A stretch of 41,817 bases of DNA, from positions 1-41,817 of IMG/VR virus record IMGVR_UViG_3300031274_000005; one strand, written 5' to 3'. The translations under genes and the position numbers were made by a program. The notes below the pieces were generated by a model. That model saw nothing but the letters and a program-made list of their open reading frames with translations. It made no database searches and was not told where the DNA came from. The DNA is from a virus. Positions 4,391-41,817 of this stretch are shown piece after piece (within the stretch, counting starts at the first letter, position 1; the number at the start of each line of letters is the position of its first letter).

Positions 4391-4674
4391 GCCGCCTCCT
4401 CGGCCCGCTGCCGGGCCGCTATCGTCTCTTTGGTGAGGATCCGCTTCAGCAGCTCCCGATGGCTCGTCCTGCTGGGGTTCGCGTCTGTCAGCCAGACCAG
4501 GTGGCAATTCCAGCAGAGGAGCGCGGGGTGCTCCCCGTGTGCATAATCCATCAAGGGGTTGCCGCACTCCGGGCAGGTGGCGATACCCTTGTTCCCGATA
4601 TGGATCATCGCGGCCTCCGTGGGCAGCCTGTCGGCCAGCGCGAACCCCTCCGGCGGGGTGAAGTCGGGCATCAT
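4387..4674 (-). CDS. Zinc-ribbon protein
   Basis: A 95-residue protein with two knuckles, CPECG (about residue 34) and CWNC (about residue 54), forming a likely zinc ribbon, then a basic helical tail. It sits between the initiator and the RusA-like gene and overlaps both by 4 bases, so a DNA-transaction role is likely, but no specific function is recognised. Confidence 0.72.
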   Translation of the reverse strand: MMPDFTPPEGFALADRLPTEAAMIHIGNKGIATCPECGNPLMDYAHGEHPALLCWNCHLVWLTDANPSRTSHRELLKRILTKETIAARQRAEEAA

Positions 4675-5762
4675 GCGATCTGCTCCTTGGGCCGGGGCCG
4701 GTTGTGCCCGGCCGTCTGCGGCGCGGGCGTGCCCAGGCGGGCGTCCGGCTCGCCGGGCTTGCGCCGGGCGGCCCCATTGATTATCTCGAACCGTATGTCC
4801 GCCTCCTCGTCCGTTACCGCCCGCACGGCCCGCAGAATCACATCGTAAAGTCGGCCCCCCAATACTTTTTGGGCCTCGACCCGATCCACGCCCACCCGGA
4901 AATATTCGTCCTCAAGCCCCAGGAACACTGCGCTGCTCAGCCAGGAGTCATACGTCTCCTGAGGGAGTTGTGTCTTGAGAATGGCGGCGATCTCCTGCCA
5001 CTTCCCCTCGCCCTCAATCAGGACGCGCAGCGGCGGCGGTTCGGGGGCGGGTGGGTCGGCGTAGTCGGGGATGTCGTATTTTCGCGCCAACTTCTTCTCT
5101 AACGAAATCGGCGCTTTGGGTGGCTTGCCTTCCGCCTTGCACCCCTTGAGTGTCGCCTCGATGTATCGGATGTTGCGGGCGTTGCGCTCGGCGGCCACCT
5201 CGATGGCCTGGCGCGTCCATTCTTCGCCGTAGGTATCGAGCAAATCGCCCAGGTCGTCGCCGATGATTGGCGTCAAGGGGCCAATGTTCGCTTCGTAAAG
5301 GGCAAAGACGGTGGCGGATGATTCTTTTTCTTTCTTCTTAGTTTCTTTCTTTTCTTTAATGTCGTTCCCAGATTGGTTACCCTCCTCCACCGCTGGCAGT
5401 GGACTAGGGTCACCGGCTGTGGTTACCTTAGTCTCCTGATCGACGCTAGTAACCTTAGTATCCTGGTTACCTTCCTCCACTACTAGTGAGTAGACGAAAG
5501 ATTGGCCGCGTGGCTCCCGTTTTATTGTTTGGCGCTCGATCCCTTTATCGATTCCGGCCTTGATACTTTTGCGGGATAGCCCCGTCATTTTTTCGAGGTC
5601 GGTATAGCTCAATTGATGCGCGGGGCGATGCCAACCGAACGTTTCCCGGCAGATTGCAAGCGTAACCTTTAGCTCGGCTACGTTCATGTCGGCCAGATGC
5701 TCATCAAATAATACGTTGGGCATCTGTGTATAGTTCGGCCTGTCGATGGTCTTCTTGGTCAC
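4671..5762 (-). CDS. Replication initiator: RepO-like N-domain, DnaD-like domain, DnaA-N-like domain
   Basis: A 363-residue protein. Residues ~1-100 look like a phage replisome organiser N-terminal winged helix (QMPNVLFDEHLADM, LSYTDLEKMTGLSRKSI). A low-complexity linker (~100-150) follows. Then comes a DnaD/DnaB2-like segment (YGEEWTRQAIEVAAERNA, RYIEATLKG) and a C-terminal DnaA domain I-like segment (LPQETYDSWLSSAVF, RFEII). It should bind the origin and recruit the helicase or its loader. The start is GTG in a GTGA overlap, with GGGGG upstream. The linker DNA contains the candidate origin. Confidence 0.85.
   Translation of the reverse strand: MTKKTIDRPNYTQMPNVLFDEHLADMNVAELKVTLAICRETFGWHRPAHQLSYTDLEKMTGLSRKSIKAGIDKGIERQTIKREPRGQSFVYSLVVEEGNQDTKVTSVDQETKVTTAGDPSPLPAVEEGNQSGNDIKEKKETKKKEKESSATVFALYEANIGPLTPIIGDDLGDLLDTYGEEWTRQAIEVAAERNARNIRYIEATLKGCKAEGKPPKAPISLEKKLARKYDIPDYADPPAPEPPPLRVLIEGEGKWQEIAAILKTQLPQETYDSWLSSAVFLGLEDEYFRVGVDRVEAQKVLGGRLYDVILRAVRAVTDEEADIRFEIINGAARRKPGEPDARLGTPAPQTAGHNRPRPKEQIA
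5319..5480. other. Candidate replication origin inside initiator gene
   Basis: An AT-rich pyrimidine tract (5320-5360, a single G in 41 bases) lies next to a cluster of GGTTACC-type repeats: 5375-5381, 5408-5414 (GGTCACC), 5421-5427, 5449-5454 (GTAACC) and 5465-5471. Two are extended to ggttacc[ct]tcctccac and two share aaccttagt or ggttaccttagt with tcctg. Position in the linker between the two ends of an O-like initiator mirrors the lambda origin inside gene O. Inferred from layout. Confidence 0.55.
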
Positions 5763-6382
5763 GTTGCCCCCTTGCTTGAATTGCAGCGACGACAAGATAA
5801 AACGAGATTATCTAGGTTGTCACTTCCTCCCCGGTATCGAGATATGACGTGATCGACTGTCGCCATGTGATCATTCATGAAATCTATTTCGTTTCGGTTG
5901 CCTGTCCCGTTTGGCGCGATCAAGTCCCACAATGCCGACAGTGGCATTAGCCAGGTGCCACAGTAATGACAGGTCATGCCATCGCGGAGCGCGATCTGCG
6001 CTCCATAACGCTCAAAATAAGAACCTGTATCTGAATAATCTATGTCCTGATTGTGATAGCCACCCCGTATAAGCACCTTATCGATTGTTTCCTGTCGGGA
6101 CTCTTCGCTTAGGCCGCTCAAAACCCCATAGAGCGGCGCGTGGTTGCCGGGTCTCCGGTATTGATAAAGATCGCCGCATTCAATCAACCTCTTTATGTTG
6201 TTAGCGACAGCTCGCGGACTCATTCCTGCCATCTCCGAAAGCCTCCAGGTCGGCAGGCAAACAGTGCCGTCTTTGTCGGTCTGCCAAGCAATAGCCAGTA
6301 ACACCAATAATGTTGTACTGTTTTCGCATAGATGGCTATCCCAGGCCCGTCGATATACAACCTCGTTGACTTCCTCACTCAT
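5759..6382 (-). CDS. Winged-helix protein with C-terminal HNH nuclease
   Basis: A 207-residue protein. Residues ~20-80 form a winged-helix replication-type domain (LPTWRLSEMAGMSPRAVANNIKRL is the HTH region). Residues ~135-207 are an HNH nuclease: CHYC, then DHVISRYRGGSDNLDN, then CRRCN as the second zinc knuckle. It is directly upstream of, and overlaps, the initiator gene (GTGA). It could be a homing-type nuclease fused to a DNA-binding domain, or a replication-associated nickase. ATG 6382 has GGAGG at 6 bp. Confidence 0.85.
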   Translation of the reverse strand: MSEEVNEVVYRRAWDSHLCENSTTLLVLLAIAWQTDKDGTVCLPTWRLSEMAGMSPRAVANNIKRLIECGDLYQYRRPGNHAPLYGVLSGLSEESRQETIDKVLIRGGYHNQDIDYSDTGSYFERYGAQIALRDGMTCHYCGTWLMPLSALWDLIAPNGTGNRNEIDFMNDHMATVDHVISRYRGGSDNLDNLVLSCRRCNSSKGAT

Positions 6383-12670: not shown

Positions 12671-12888
12671 CACGACACCTCAGCCGCTATAACGGCGCGC
12701 TTGGCGATGGCCTCGATCTTGCCTCGCCGATCTTCGAGAAGTTGATAGCGGTACTCTGCGCCCTGCCAGAGTTCGCAATCCTCTTTGCCATCAACGGCAT
12801 TTTTGAGAATGTCGCGTAGCGCCTTCTCCATCATGTCAGATCGGCTAATCAATTCCTCTCGCGATAGGTGATCTAAATTCTGGTTCAT
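12670..12888 (-). CDS. First gene of the attenuated early operon
   Basis: A 72-residue helical protein, unknown function. Its AGGAGG ribosome site (7 bp from ATG) is the 3' arm of a terminator-like hairpin, so translation and read-through should both depend on that hairpin opening. It overlaps the next gene. Confidence 0.7.
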   Translation of the reverse strand: MNQNLDHLSREELISRSDMMEKALRDILKNAVDGKEDCELWQGAEYRYQLLEDRRGKIEAIAKRAVIAAEVS

Positions 12889-12890
12889 AC

Positions 12891-12919
12891 AAAAACCTCC
12901 TGGCTGTTTGCTCAGGAGG
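12891..12919 (-). terminator. Leader terminator that also sequesters the ribosome site
   Basis: On the minus strand CCTCCTG and CAGGAGG (12913-12919 and 12896-12902) pair perfectly around a 10-nt loop, then TTTTT follows and the ATG comes 2 bases later. The right arm contains the AGGAGG ribosome site of the gene at 12670-12888. It can be replaced by pairing of 12982-12992 with 12915-12925. Confidence 0.75.
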
Positions 12920-12932
12920 TGATGGCTTCTTA

Positions 12933-12962
12933 TTGACTTGCCGACTGCGCCTATGCTACAAT
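12933..12962 (+). promoter_or_regulatory. Promoter for antisense RNA
   Basis: TTGACT, 18 bp, TACAAT, close to the sigma-70 consensus, pointing right. Transcription should start near 12969, and the terminator hairpin at 13006-13028 follows within about 40 bp. Confidence 0.65.
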
Positions 12963-12968
12963 CAGGCT

Positions 12969-13031
12969 AAGCCACTCGGAGCCACTACCTCCGGTTGGTG
13001 CCGCCAGCGGGGTTCCGGCCCCGCTTTTGGC
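12969..13031 (+). ncRNA. Putative antisense attenuation RNA
   Basis: A short RNA of about 60-65 nt is bounded by the promoter upstream and a hairpin (AGCGGGG with CCCCGCT, 13006-13012 and 13019-13025) followed by TTTGGCTTTT. Its first hairpin (CGGAG with CTCCG, 12977-12981 and 12989-12993) shows the 7-nt loop CCACTAC. The opposite-strand leader forms the matching hairpin with loop GTAGTGG, so a kissing contact is possible. Ends are estimates. Confidence 0.6.
12982..12992 (-). promoter_or_regulatory. Antiterminator arm of the early leader
   Basis: In the leftward leader GGAGGTAGTGG (12992 to 12982) can pair with CCATCACCTCC (12925 to 12915): 10 of 11 positions including one G-U, which would disrupt the terminator and free the ribosome site. 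The same bases are the loop and 5' stem arm target of the antisense RNA. Confidence 0.6.
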
Positions 13032-13050
13032 TTTTCTATTGACTACTTAG

Positions 13051-13079
13051 ATTGTATCATATGCGCGACATACTGTCAA
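13051..13079 (-). promoter_or_regulatory. Strong early promoter
   Basis: TTGACA, 17 bp, TACAAT on the minus strand: a near-consensus sigma-70 promoter. Start of transcription near 13044 gives a leader of about 155 nt before the ATG at 12888. It lies just past the stop codon of the excisionase-like gene. Confidence 0.8.
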
Positions 13080-13261
13080 TCCCCGGGTACGGGTTTTCCG
13101 CGCTTCCTGTCCTTGATGGCCTCAAGATTTTCCTCGGGGATAAGCCAATCGCGCCCACGCTTATCCGCCCCGAGGCGGCCCCGCTCGATCAGTTTGCGGA
13201 CAGACCCGGGCTTGATTCCCAGGATGTCGGCGGCCTCTTGTGTAGTCAACAACTTACCCAT
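13076..13261 (-). CDS. Excisionase/MerR-like HTH protein
   Basis: A 61-residue protein with a full MerR-type HTH_17 motif (LLTTQEAADILGIKPGSVRKL) followed by a wing (GRDWLIPEENLEAI), the usual form of phage excisionases and small DNA-binding regulators. ATG 13261 is preferred; in-frame upstream starts reach 13297. Its 3' end overlaps the -35 of the early promoter by a few bases. No integrase is present to pair with it, so a regulatory role is more likely than excision. Confidence 0.82.
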   Translation of the reverse strand: MGKLLTTQEAADILGIKPGSVRKLIERGRLGADKRGRDWLIPEENLEAIKDRKRGKPVPGD

Positions 13262-13431
13262 GTGCCCATTGTAGTACATGGGGGGCCTCCTGTCCATGCT
13301 ATTCAGTTGTTAAACGCAGGGGGCTATTTGTATAGCGCCGCCCCCACCCCTGGCGCTCATTGGTTATCAAGGTGCTGGGGCCGCCGAGTTGACGGCCCCG
13401 TTACTCCTCCGCCACATGGGCGGCGAGCTGA

Positions 13432-13502
13432 AGCCCGGAGAGGACTCGAACCTCTGCTCTCCCCGCCTGGGGGCCGGGGCGCTCTCCCTGAGCTACCGGG
13501 CT
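13432..13502 (-). tRNA. tRNA-like gene, anticodon uncertain (possible Gly CCC)
   Basis: A 71-nt cloverleaf: perfect 7-bp acceptor (AGCCCGG/CCGGGCT), TA, 4-bp D stem (GCTC/GAGC) with a 5-nt loop, 5-bp anticodon stem (CCCCG/CGGGG), 5-nt variable loop and a perfect T arm (AGAGG TTCGAGT CCTCT). The anticodon loop is 9 nt (GCCCCCAGG) and lacks U33; CCC (Gly) is the best guess, CCA (Trp) an alternative. CCA is not encoded. Function uncertain because of the odd loops. Confidence 0.6.
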
Positions 13503-14815: not shown

Positions 14816-15181
14816 ATGCCCACAGAACTCGTCCACACGTTAGAAGAGCGCATTAAGGAGGATGGATTGCGCGCCGTGGCGCGCGGCATCAAGATCAGCC
14901 CGTCCACGCTGTACAGCATTTTAGACGGCAACGACTTCCAAGATCGAACACTCGCCAAGCTATCACGCTATCTTCATATACCCCCCACCGAGGTCTATCG
15001 TATGACGCACACCGAACACGGACATCAACCCAACGATGTCACCTATGACGCCATGCGCCTGATCGCCAGCATGATGGAGCTGCTGCCGGACGATATCAAG
15101 GCCCGCCTGATAGAACATTTTCAAAACATGATCCGAACCGAAATCCGATTTTATGAGAAATTCATGAACGACCATCAGTAA
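14816..15181 (+). CDS. HTH regulator, divergent to RHH gene
   Basis: A 121-residue protein with an N-terminal HTH of Cro/XRE-like type (GLRAVARGIKISPSTLYSIL, then LAKLSRYLHI) and a helical C-terminus for dimer contacts. AAGGA lies 7 bp before the ATG. Position and direction (opposite to all early genes) are those of a lysogeny-type repressor, though sequence alone does not show it. Confidence 0.75.
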   Translation: MPTELVHTLEERIKEDGLRAVARGIKISPSTLYSILDGNDFQDRTLAKLSRYLHIPPTEVYRMTHTEHGHQPNDVTYDAMRLIASMMELLPDDIKARLIEHFQNMIRTEIRFYEKFMNDHQ

Positions 15182-15856: not shown

Positions 15857-15884
15857 TTGACAATGTACATACAATGTGTATAAT
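15857..15884 (+). promoter_or_regulatory. Consensus promoter of the RHH-membrane-pentapeptide genes
   Basis: TTGACA, 16 bp, TATAAT, both perfect. The spacer contains the palindrome ATGTACAT, and ACAATGT is repeated across it, suggesting an operator for a small regulator such as the RHH protein it drives. The coding start is about 12 bp past the expected transcription start. Confidence 0.82.
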
Positions 15885-15902
15885 TGAGGCATGAGGTGGA
15901 AC

Positions 15903-16085
15903 ATGGAAAAGATACCGCAAAACTTCAGGCTACCCCGCGTGACCATTGAGCAGCTAGAGGAGATGGCGCGCAAGCGGGGGCTGAGCAAGACCGCCATTGT
16001 TATCTTGGCAGTAGGCGAACTGCACCTTAAGAACCGAATAGACAACCAGGAGCGGGCACCCGCCCGCTTGGAGGAAAACACATGA
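15903..16085 (+). CDS. Ribbon-helix-helix protein
   Basis: A 60-residue protein with strand FRLPRVTIEQLEEMARKRG and a second helix (SKTAIVILAVGEL), typical of CopG/RHH regulators. ATG 15903 has AGGTGG 3 bp upstream; ATG 15891 is the alternative. It overlaps the membrane protein gene (ATGA) and may repress its own promoter. Confidence 0.72.
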   Translation: MEKIPQNFRLPRVTIEQLEEMARKRGLSKTAIVILAVGELHLKNRIDNQERAPARLEENT

Positions 16086-16819: not shown

Positions 16820-17212
16820 ATGGAAGCATGGGAACGAGTGGGAGAATCGCCCGCCTATTGGGGCGGAGCACGATCAGAATGGACCCTGGAGCGGCAGCGG
16901 GCGCTCCATGCCAAATGGAAGATCATTCATGCCCGCCACAACTTGGATGGACACAACTTTTCGGGACAGAGCCTATGCGGGGCAGACCTGGGTTTTCTTA
17001 GCCTTGAGGGGGCGAATTTCAACGGGGCAGACCTGCGCTATGCCAACTTCGGAGCCTCATTGCTTTATGGGGCGACATTCGTAGGGGCCAAGCTATGTAA
17101 TGCAGATTTCATTGACGCCGAATTGGTGGGCACCGATTTTTCCGAATCAGACTTGACAGACGCCAGGATGCCCGACGGCAGTATCTACTCATATGGCGGT
17201 CGCTGGGGCTAG
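16820..17212 (+). CDS. Pentapeptide-repeat protein
   Basis: A 130-residue protein. Residues ~42-115 contain about 14 A(D/N)LXX-type repeats (ANFNGADLRYANFGASLL, AKLCNADFIDAEL), which fold as a right-handed quadrilateral beta helix. Some family members mimic DNA and inhibit gyrase or restriction. The N-terminus (~1-40) is not repetitive. AGGAG lies 7 bp before the ATG. Confidence 0.85.
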   Translation: MEAWERVGESPAYWGGARSEWTLERQRALHAKWKIIHARHNLDGHNFSGQSLCGADLGFLSLEGANFNGADLRYANFGASLLYGATFVGAKLCNADFIDAELVGTDFSESDLTDARMPDGSIYSYGGRWG

Positions 17213-40287: not shown

Positions 40288-40303
40288 GATATCAAGGGAT
40301 ATC
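40288..40303. promoter_or_regulatory. Paired GATATC palindromes before late genes
   Basis: GATATC occurs twice, 4 bp apart (40288-40293 and 40298-40303), about 40 bp upstream of the first late gene. Both halves are self-complementary, so the whole is a symmetrical operator-like site. No strong sigma-70 promoter is seen here; a poor TTGTCC-16-TAAGTC lies in the adjacent repeat. Confidence 0.4.
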
Positions 40304-40356
40304 GTGACTTATTCCCTCAAAAAACCTGGACAACTTTTCCCCTCCCCGCGCCGCCG
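40297..40356. repeat. 60-bp direct repeat, right copy
   Basis: Identical to bases 1-60; divergence begins at 40357. Confidence 0.95.
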
Positions 40357-41628: not shown

Positions 41629-41817
41629 AATTGCCCCTCATTATCACCAATACCTCCATCATCATCCCTCAATGGCTTAATTCGACTTTTGGGGGCAGCG
41701 CCATGAATGATAACCGGGATAGGCGGATCGAAGTCGCGGTTCACGCCCCGGTAATCAAACCACCACCAACCCATGCGAAACTCGCGCAATTTAACGGGTA
41801 TCTCTTCTCCGGCATCG
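41625..41817 (-). CDS. Right-end copy of the boundary protein (5' partial)
   Basis: The reading frame enters from the contig end and matches the 680-892 protein exactly over the 105-bp repeat, then diverges but stays similar (HGAAPKSRIKP against PGAAPKDRIRA), and extends past the shared GGIG to end NEGQL. The start codon is outside the window. It shows that the boundary gene itself is chimeric between alleles. Confidence 0.8.
   Translation of the reverse strand, partial: DAGEEIPVKLREFRMGWWWFDYRGVNRDFDPPIPVIIHGAAPKSRIKPLRDDDGGIGDNEGQL
41713..41817. repeat. 105-bp direct repeat, right copy
   Basis: Identical to 759-863; it runs to the last base of the window. Confidence 0.95.

Follow-up and report, generated by a model that had tools for sequence, protein, structure and literature searches.

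Phage early operons are usually ascribed to the control of repressor and antiterminator proteins. What governs the leftward early block of the IMG/VR record IMGVR_UViG_3300031274_000005? The window analysed here is this entire record, a virus sequence of 41.8 kb (41,817 nt). Terminase, portal and head genes are among its leftward genes, and the early block, which starts at position 12888, contains DNA methyltransferases, an HNH/O-like gene, a RepO/DnaD-like gene and a RusA-like resolvase. Between an HTH_17 gene and this early operon lie 187 nt that house every element of a predicted switch (Table 1). On the basis of sequence and computation, we assign a probability of about 0.78 to countertranscript-driven attenuation of the ~12.8-kb early operon by the logic of the plasmids pT181 and pIP501. 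This is what a sequence-only reading had proposed, and it fits because the leader has two exclusive folds, the antisense RNA lies over the 5' arm of the antiterminator and the layout recurs in unrelated phage leaders.

Table 1. Features of the predicted switch and of the operon behind it, in window coordinates
Feature	Position	Strand	Remarks
Replication initiation O-like/DnaD-like helicase loader gene	4671..5795	-	within leftward operon
Third gene, 275 aa	10422..11249	-	orphan
Second gene, 475 aa	11246..12673	-	orphan
First gene, 72 aa	12670..12888	-	without family match; product not hydrophobic
Leader, 156 nt	12889..13044	-	mutually exclusive antiterminator/terminator folds; start deduced
Intrinsic terminator	12891..12919	-	stem 12896-12919, U-run 12891-12895
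Antiterminator 3' arm AGCCAUCACCUCC	12915..12927	-	overlaps terminator 5' arm
Antisense promoter TTGACT-18-TACAAT	12933..12962	+	10/12; TGn extended -10
Predicted antisense RNA, ~63 nt	12969..13031	+	two stem-loops (loop CCACUAC; terminator hairpin); ends deduced
Antiterminator (pre-emptor) 5' arm GGAGGUAGUGGCU	12980..12992	-	inside antisense-covered segment
Antisense terminator hairpin with T-tail	13000..13031	+	core 13006-13025, T-tail to ~13031
Sense promoter TTGACA-17-TACAAT	13051..13079	-	11/12; TGn extended -10
HTH_17 (excisionase-like) gene	13076..13297	-	just upstream of leader

The leftward consensus promoter of the sequence-only reading is in place and has a TGn extended -10 in addition; the transcription start of the early operon, as deduced from it, lies at ~13044. 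A palindrome, GACAGTATGTC (13067-13078), is operator-like and overlaps the -35 element of this promoter; its near-copies elsewhere are not above chance. Compared with shuffled sequences, the leader folds with z = -5.0. Its terminator, which is found where it had been proposed, reads CCUCCUGAGC-AAACA-GCCAGGAGG (12919-12896), then UUUUU, that is, a strong GC-rich stem and a perfect U5 tract. The AGGAGG at 12896-12901 is both the Shine-Dalgarno (SD) site and the 3' arm of the terminator, and the U-run doubles as the spacer between SD and ATG of the first gene, whose start is 12888. An alternative pairing was originally described with 10 of 11 positions (12982-12992 with 12915-12925); it is real and extends further: 12992-12980 pairs with 12915-12927 at 12 of 13 positions, with one A.C mismatch. 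By holding the terminator 5' arm the antiterminator gains -11.3 kcal/mol, which was matched by 11/1000 and 2/500 shuffles.

On the + strand, a promoter and a terminator had been thought to bracket an RNA of about 60–65 nt. Both are there, and the predicted RNA of ~63 nt folds with -32.3 kcal/mol (z = -2.6). When the intergenic stretch was shuffled 20,000 times with dinucleotides preserved, such a promoter with a terminator at the right distance behind it appeared once; in the record itself, both strands considered, this unit is the only one. The segment covered by the antisense RNA takes in exactly the antiterminator 5' arm. Three characteristics of attenuators of the pT181/pIP501 type are present here: an intrinsic terminator ahead of the start codon (12919-12891), a pre-emptor that can engage the 5' arm of this terminator (p 0.99 while the leader is nascent), and an opposite-strand promoter and terminator for an RNA that would cover the pre-emptor. 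The Rfam ctRNA covariance models gave no match at the gathering threshold or at E<=5. The sequence-only reading had also pointed to the complementary loops CCACTAC of the antisense RNA and GTAGTGG of the leader. They are complementary, but this is not independent evidence, because the two RNAs are read from opposite strands of the same DNA; moreover, the leader loop exists only transiently in the predicted folding.

Folding yields the two exclusive leader forms that the attenuation reading implies. In sequential folding the hairpin with the GUAGUGG loop comes first (nascent 68–72 nt), is then lost, and is re-formed with growth (~112–120 nt). At nascent lengths of 128–140 the antiterminator is dominant (0.95–0.99), and before the terminator 3' arm exists its outer half has p 0.99 and its inner half 0.96. 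The terminator has p 0.71 in the finished leader without antisense RNA and 1.00 when the antisense-covered part is blocked. Blocking 12976-12996 alone is sufficient for this, independent of the exact start site. Thus, termination upon antisense binding is what the folding predicts when the bound segment is blocked. The folding here is static, and the switch depends on folding kinetics, because the completed leader prefers the terminator at equilibrium even without antisense RNA.

The following mechanism can be proposed. The leftward early promoter would give rise to the ~156-nt leader, in which 12992-12980 would pair with 12927-12915 while the RNA is nascent, so that the terminator (12919-12891) is blocked when its second arm emerges. 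In this antiterminator state polymerase would enter the early operon, with AGGAGG accessible. The ~63-nt RNA from the + strand promoter would bind the leader over 13031-12969 and remove the antiterminator 5' arm; the terminator/SD hairpin would form and transcription would stop before the first start codon. In escaping transcripts the ribosome site would be concealed in the hairpin, and the off state would thus also block translation, because the terminator stem contains the SD. The output of antisense RNA would scale in proportion to phage DNA copy number, placing early and replication genes under negative feedback as copies rise. We infer in this that both RNAs are made, that their binding is fast enough and that copy number is the quantity sensed.

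A single leader can control ~12.8 kb, because on the leftward strand no promoter-like site above 9/12 exists between the leader and the RepO gene, and downstream of the leader there is no strong terminator before 151-122. Judged by these signals, the early operon presumably forms one unit. Its first three genes are orphans and the RepO/DnaD-like gene is located ~7 kb downstream of the attenuator; both facts call for caution about copy-number control, which the switch may exert. AlphaFold predictions for the 275-aa and 475-aa proteins were of too poor quality (pLDDT 50 and 38) and were discarded.

With regard to the neighbourhood, the real start of the HTH_17 gene may lie downstream of 13297, and a tRNA-Gly (CCC) gene is found directly upstream of it (13430-13502, - strand). 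The + strand carries a weak Cro/CI-like HTH gene (14816-15181), a perfect TTGACA-16-TATAAT promoter with repeat-rich sequence (15857-15884) and, behind this promoter, a CopG-family ribbon-helix-helix gene of 64 aa (15891-16085), together a possible repressor region. It also encodes a pentapeptide-repeat protein (16820-17212) with distant similarity, well under the cut-offs, to several pentapeptide-repeat families. Nucleotides 1-60 of the record are found again exactly at 40297-40356, and 686-863 and 41646-41817 are 86.6% alike; the record ends in a copy, redundant or divergent, of its own beginning, from a circular/permuted genome or a strain mixture. A tyrosine integrase (PF00589), a resolvase-type recombinase (PF00239) or a ParA-type ATPase (PF13614) had no match in the window.

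The search with the portal protein led to the nearest relative, L124, which is 74–93% identical across much of the structural half and spans the start/end junction of the record. It stops in the RepO gene, at window position 4693, and the leader is outside its reach. No early-region relative was found in viral contigs with the 72-aa, 475-aa, HTH and RepO proteins or in genome contigs with the 475-aa protein, and tblastn/blastn against phage and plasmid records gave no early-gene relative. The antisense core GCCACTACCTCCGG, used as a query, returned chance matches only. Homologues of the HTH protein in Bacillus, Listeria and Lactobacillus phages (L347-L354) are often encoded ahead of replisome organizers.

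The architecture can also be searched for as such. We used a pattern of a terminator with AGGAGG as its 3' arm and a U-run serving as SD-ATG spacer; the terminator/SD letters of the leaders found in this way are not independent evidence, because the pattern fixed them. It matches once in the window, in 88 stretches of viral contigs and in at least 120 of genome contigs, and such leaders without an antisense unit are common in phages and bacteria. The count covered 33 distinct viral leaders, each followed by an ORF of at least 40 aa, and 42 chromosomal leaders; the full antisense layout was defined as an antisense promoter of at least 9/12 plus a strong antisense terminator. Five of the 33 viral leaders have the complete unit, compared to 0.27 expected from shuffles (sd 0.51), namely L144, L149, L176, L205 and L208, which represent four kinds as L205 is related to L208. 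Among the chromosomal leaders it was found in 0 of 42 (0.30 expected). Two other rounds of counting gave comparable figures. A second pattern, based on the antisense -10, recovered the five viral leaders and in addition L340, from a Bacillota genome contig. In Bacillota chromosomes matches to the pattern were not commoner than with the reversed control (2/399 genomes, both phylum searches having sampled essentially the same genomes), and L340 is the true look-alike among the two Bacillota matches.

All antisense-bearing leaders have predicted antisense RNAs of 61–71 nt. In L205, L208, L176, L149 and L340 the antisense-covered segment includes the bases that pair with the 5' arm of the terminator, and blocking them lifts the terminator p from 0.21 to 0.95 in L205, from 0.00 to 0.95 in L208, from 0.27 to 0.99 in L176, from 0.71 to 0.98 in L149, where terminator and antiterminator overlap by just 3 nt, and from 0.03 to 0.85 in L340. 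L144 has all parts, with an antiterminator that is not clearly favoured (its gain was equalled by 278/500 shuffles). The switch sequences of L205 and L208 are near-identical; by eye, the first six pairs of their antisense-terminator stems read GGACAC/GTGTCC and GAGCGT/ACGCTC, respectively, with four pairs changed on both sides. At the level of sequence, these paired changes support the stem being a selected structure.

The ORFs behind these leaders are of varied kinds and 50–329 aa long. L149 has the order ParB-like gene (phrog_12305, 2e-37), 12/12 sense promoter, attenuator, 50-aa ORF, Rad52-like SSAP and replisome organizer (PF09681, 1e-21; phrog_5968, 4e-46), and in L340 an HTH_17-like gene, the attenuator, an ORF of ~131 aa and a replication initiation O-like gene follow each other. 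Both attenuators are thus, like that of the window, ahead of replication operons. The 49.7-kb contig of L149 (G007) has three tyrosine-recombinase matches beside the ParB-like gene and no ParA-type match; it is possibly a phage-plasmid. L176 follows an HTH gene and precedes an ImmA-like peptidase, the attenuators of L205 and L208 precede an 84-aa ORF, with a ribbon-helix-helix-like gene upstream in L208, and that of L144 precedes a tyrosine recombinase-like ORF (the latter two by inspection). In Bacillus phage Silence (KT001912, 22885-23036; L342, 2830-2983) an HTH gene is followed by an intergenic antisense unit of ~93 nt with a TATAAT promoter (9/12) and a strong terminator, then by a hairpin that hides the SD but has no U-run, and by a 226-aa ORF, possibly a translational version of the switch in a cultured phage.

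Among known systems, pT181 has the RBS-containing stem-loop IV as terminator, whose 5' arm is the partner of a pre-emptor, and binding of RNAI leads to termination; pIP501 has the same working mode plus CopR (PMC5703833). The window shares with pT181 a terminator right before the start codon, a pre-emptor, an opposite-strand antisense RNA over the pre-emptor and an RBS in the terminator stem, and with pIP501 an upstream gene for a DNA-binding protein (CopR there, the HTH_17 gene here). It differs from both in being a tailed phage, in its single ~63-nt antisense RNA, in the 72-aa orphan that comes first, with the initiator-like gene ~7 kb downstream, and in a sequence matching no Rfam ctRNA family. 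Judged by this analogy, the predicted switch is mechanistically the same as that of pT181/pIP501. A small DNA-binding gene, an antisense RNA and a replication gene together make up the arrangement seen in plasmid copy control. Plasmid pMV158 has this order, copG-RNAII-repB, RNAII being short (PMC4485353); there, however, RNAII blocks translation, with no terminator switch described.

The earlier statement that such control is unusual for a tailed phage needs softening, since the CI RNA of satellite phage P4, an antisense RNA, already causes premature termination of replication operon transcription (PMC4825925). P4 and the window have in common an antisense RNA and early termination of phage replication genes. 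CI RNA, however, is processed from the transcript of its own operon, whereas the window has a separate opposite-strand promoter and terminator for the antisense RNA, and its target is an intrinsic terminator containing the SD. In the limited open-access literature we did not find a tailed-phage countertranscript that has a promoter and a terminator to itself and governs an SD-containing intrinsic terminator. Thus, antisense-dependent termination is already known in phages from P4, and the tailed-phage countertranscript form appears to be new.

Short antisense RNAs of phages include P22 sar (68/69 nt), lambda OOP (77 nt) and P1/P7 c4 (77 nt) (PMC12197685). Together with lambda aQ and P22 sas they resemble the RNA predicted here in size and in acting on phage control genes; they differ in targeting translation or mRNA fate, and none is called an attenuator (PMC12197685). 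The antisense RNA of the window might likewise be mainly translational, favouring the AGGAGG-hiding hairpin or causing cleavage of its duplex with the leader, with termination secondary. The SD is indeed the terminator 3' arm, phage Silence pairs an antisense unit with an SD-hiding hairpin that lacks a U-run, and P22 sar and P1/P7 c4 work on translation (PMC12197685). We nevertheless regard this as unlikely, since a perfect U5 after a strong GC-rich stem would be superfluous for pure SD hiding, and the RBS of pT181 is also in a stem, yet termination is the main effect (PMC5703833).

Very unlikely, in our judgement, is a simple attenuator, constitutive or controlled by a protein or by translation, with a + promoter that is fortuitous or acts by transcription interference only. 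The preference for the terminator without antisense RNA at equilibrium and the many viral and chromosomal SD-terminators lacking an antisense unit would agree with it; against it, the antisense unit lies exactly over the antiterminator arm (the 1/20,000 of the shuffles), the layout recurs in other phages, and inspection of the leader sequence revealed no plausible leader peptide. That a type I toxin-antitoxin pair is present, the antisense RNA silencing a toxic 72-aa peptide, is hardly credible: the RNA lies over the 5' end of an mRNA with a small ORF and prophages carry such pairs (PMC7430163), but the product is charged throughout and soluble-looking, not hydrophobic, it heads a long operon, and the counterpart leaders precede proteins of varied size and kind.

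Beyond countertranscript attenuation in this one phage, the chances seem about even that these leaders form a recurrent, undescribed class of tailed-phage attenuators, composed of an HTH_17 or ribbon-helix-helix gene, an antisense RNA of ~61–71 nt and an SD-terminator. The class would provide plasmid-like copy control ahead of the replication operon in several phages (lytic or unintegrated prophage) and be reused elsewhere for single cargo genes. Unintegrated prophages with RNA-based replication are described for mycobacteriophages (PMC7157519). The scarcity of natural antisense attenuators is a stated bottleneck of synthetic biology (PMC3753616), to which fresh ones would be supplied if the reading is true. 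A copy-sensing antisense attenuator would, if true, explain the self-limited replication of a phage without a recognisable integrase. It would also link phages to plasmid incompatibility, and changes in the loops would found new 'immunity' groups.
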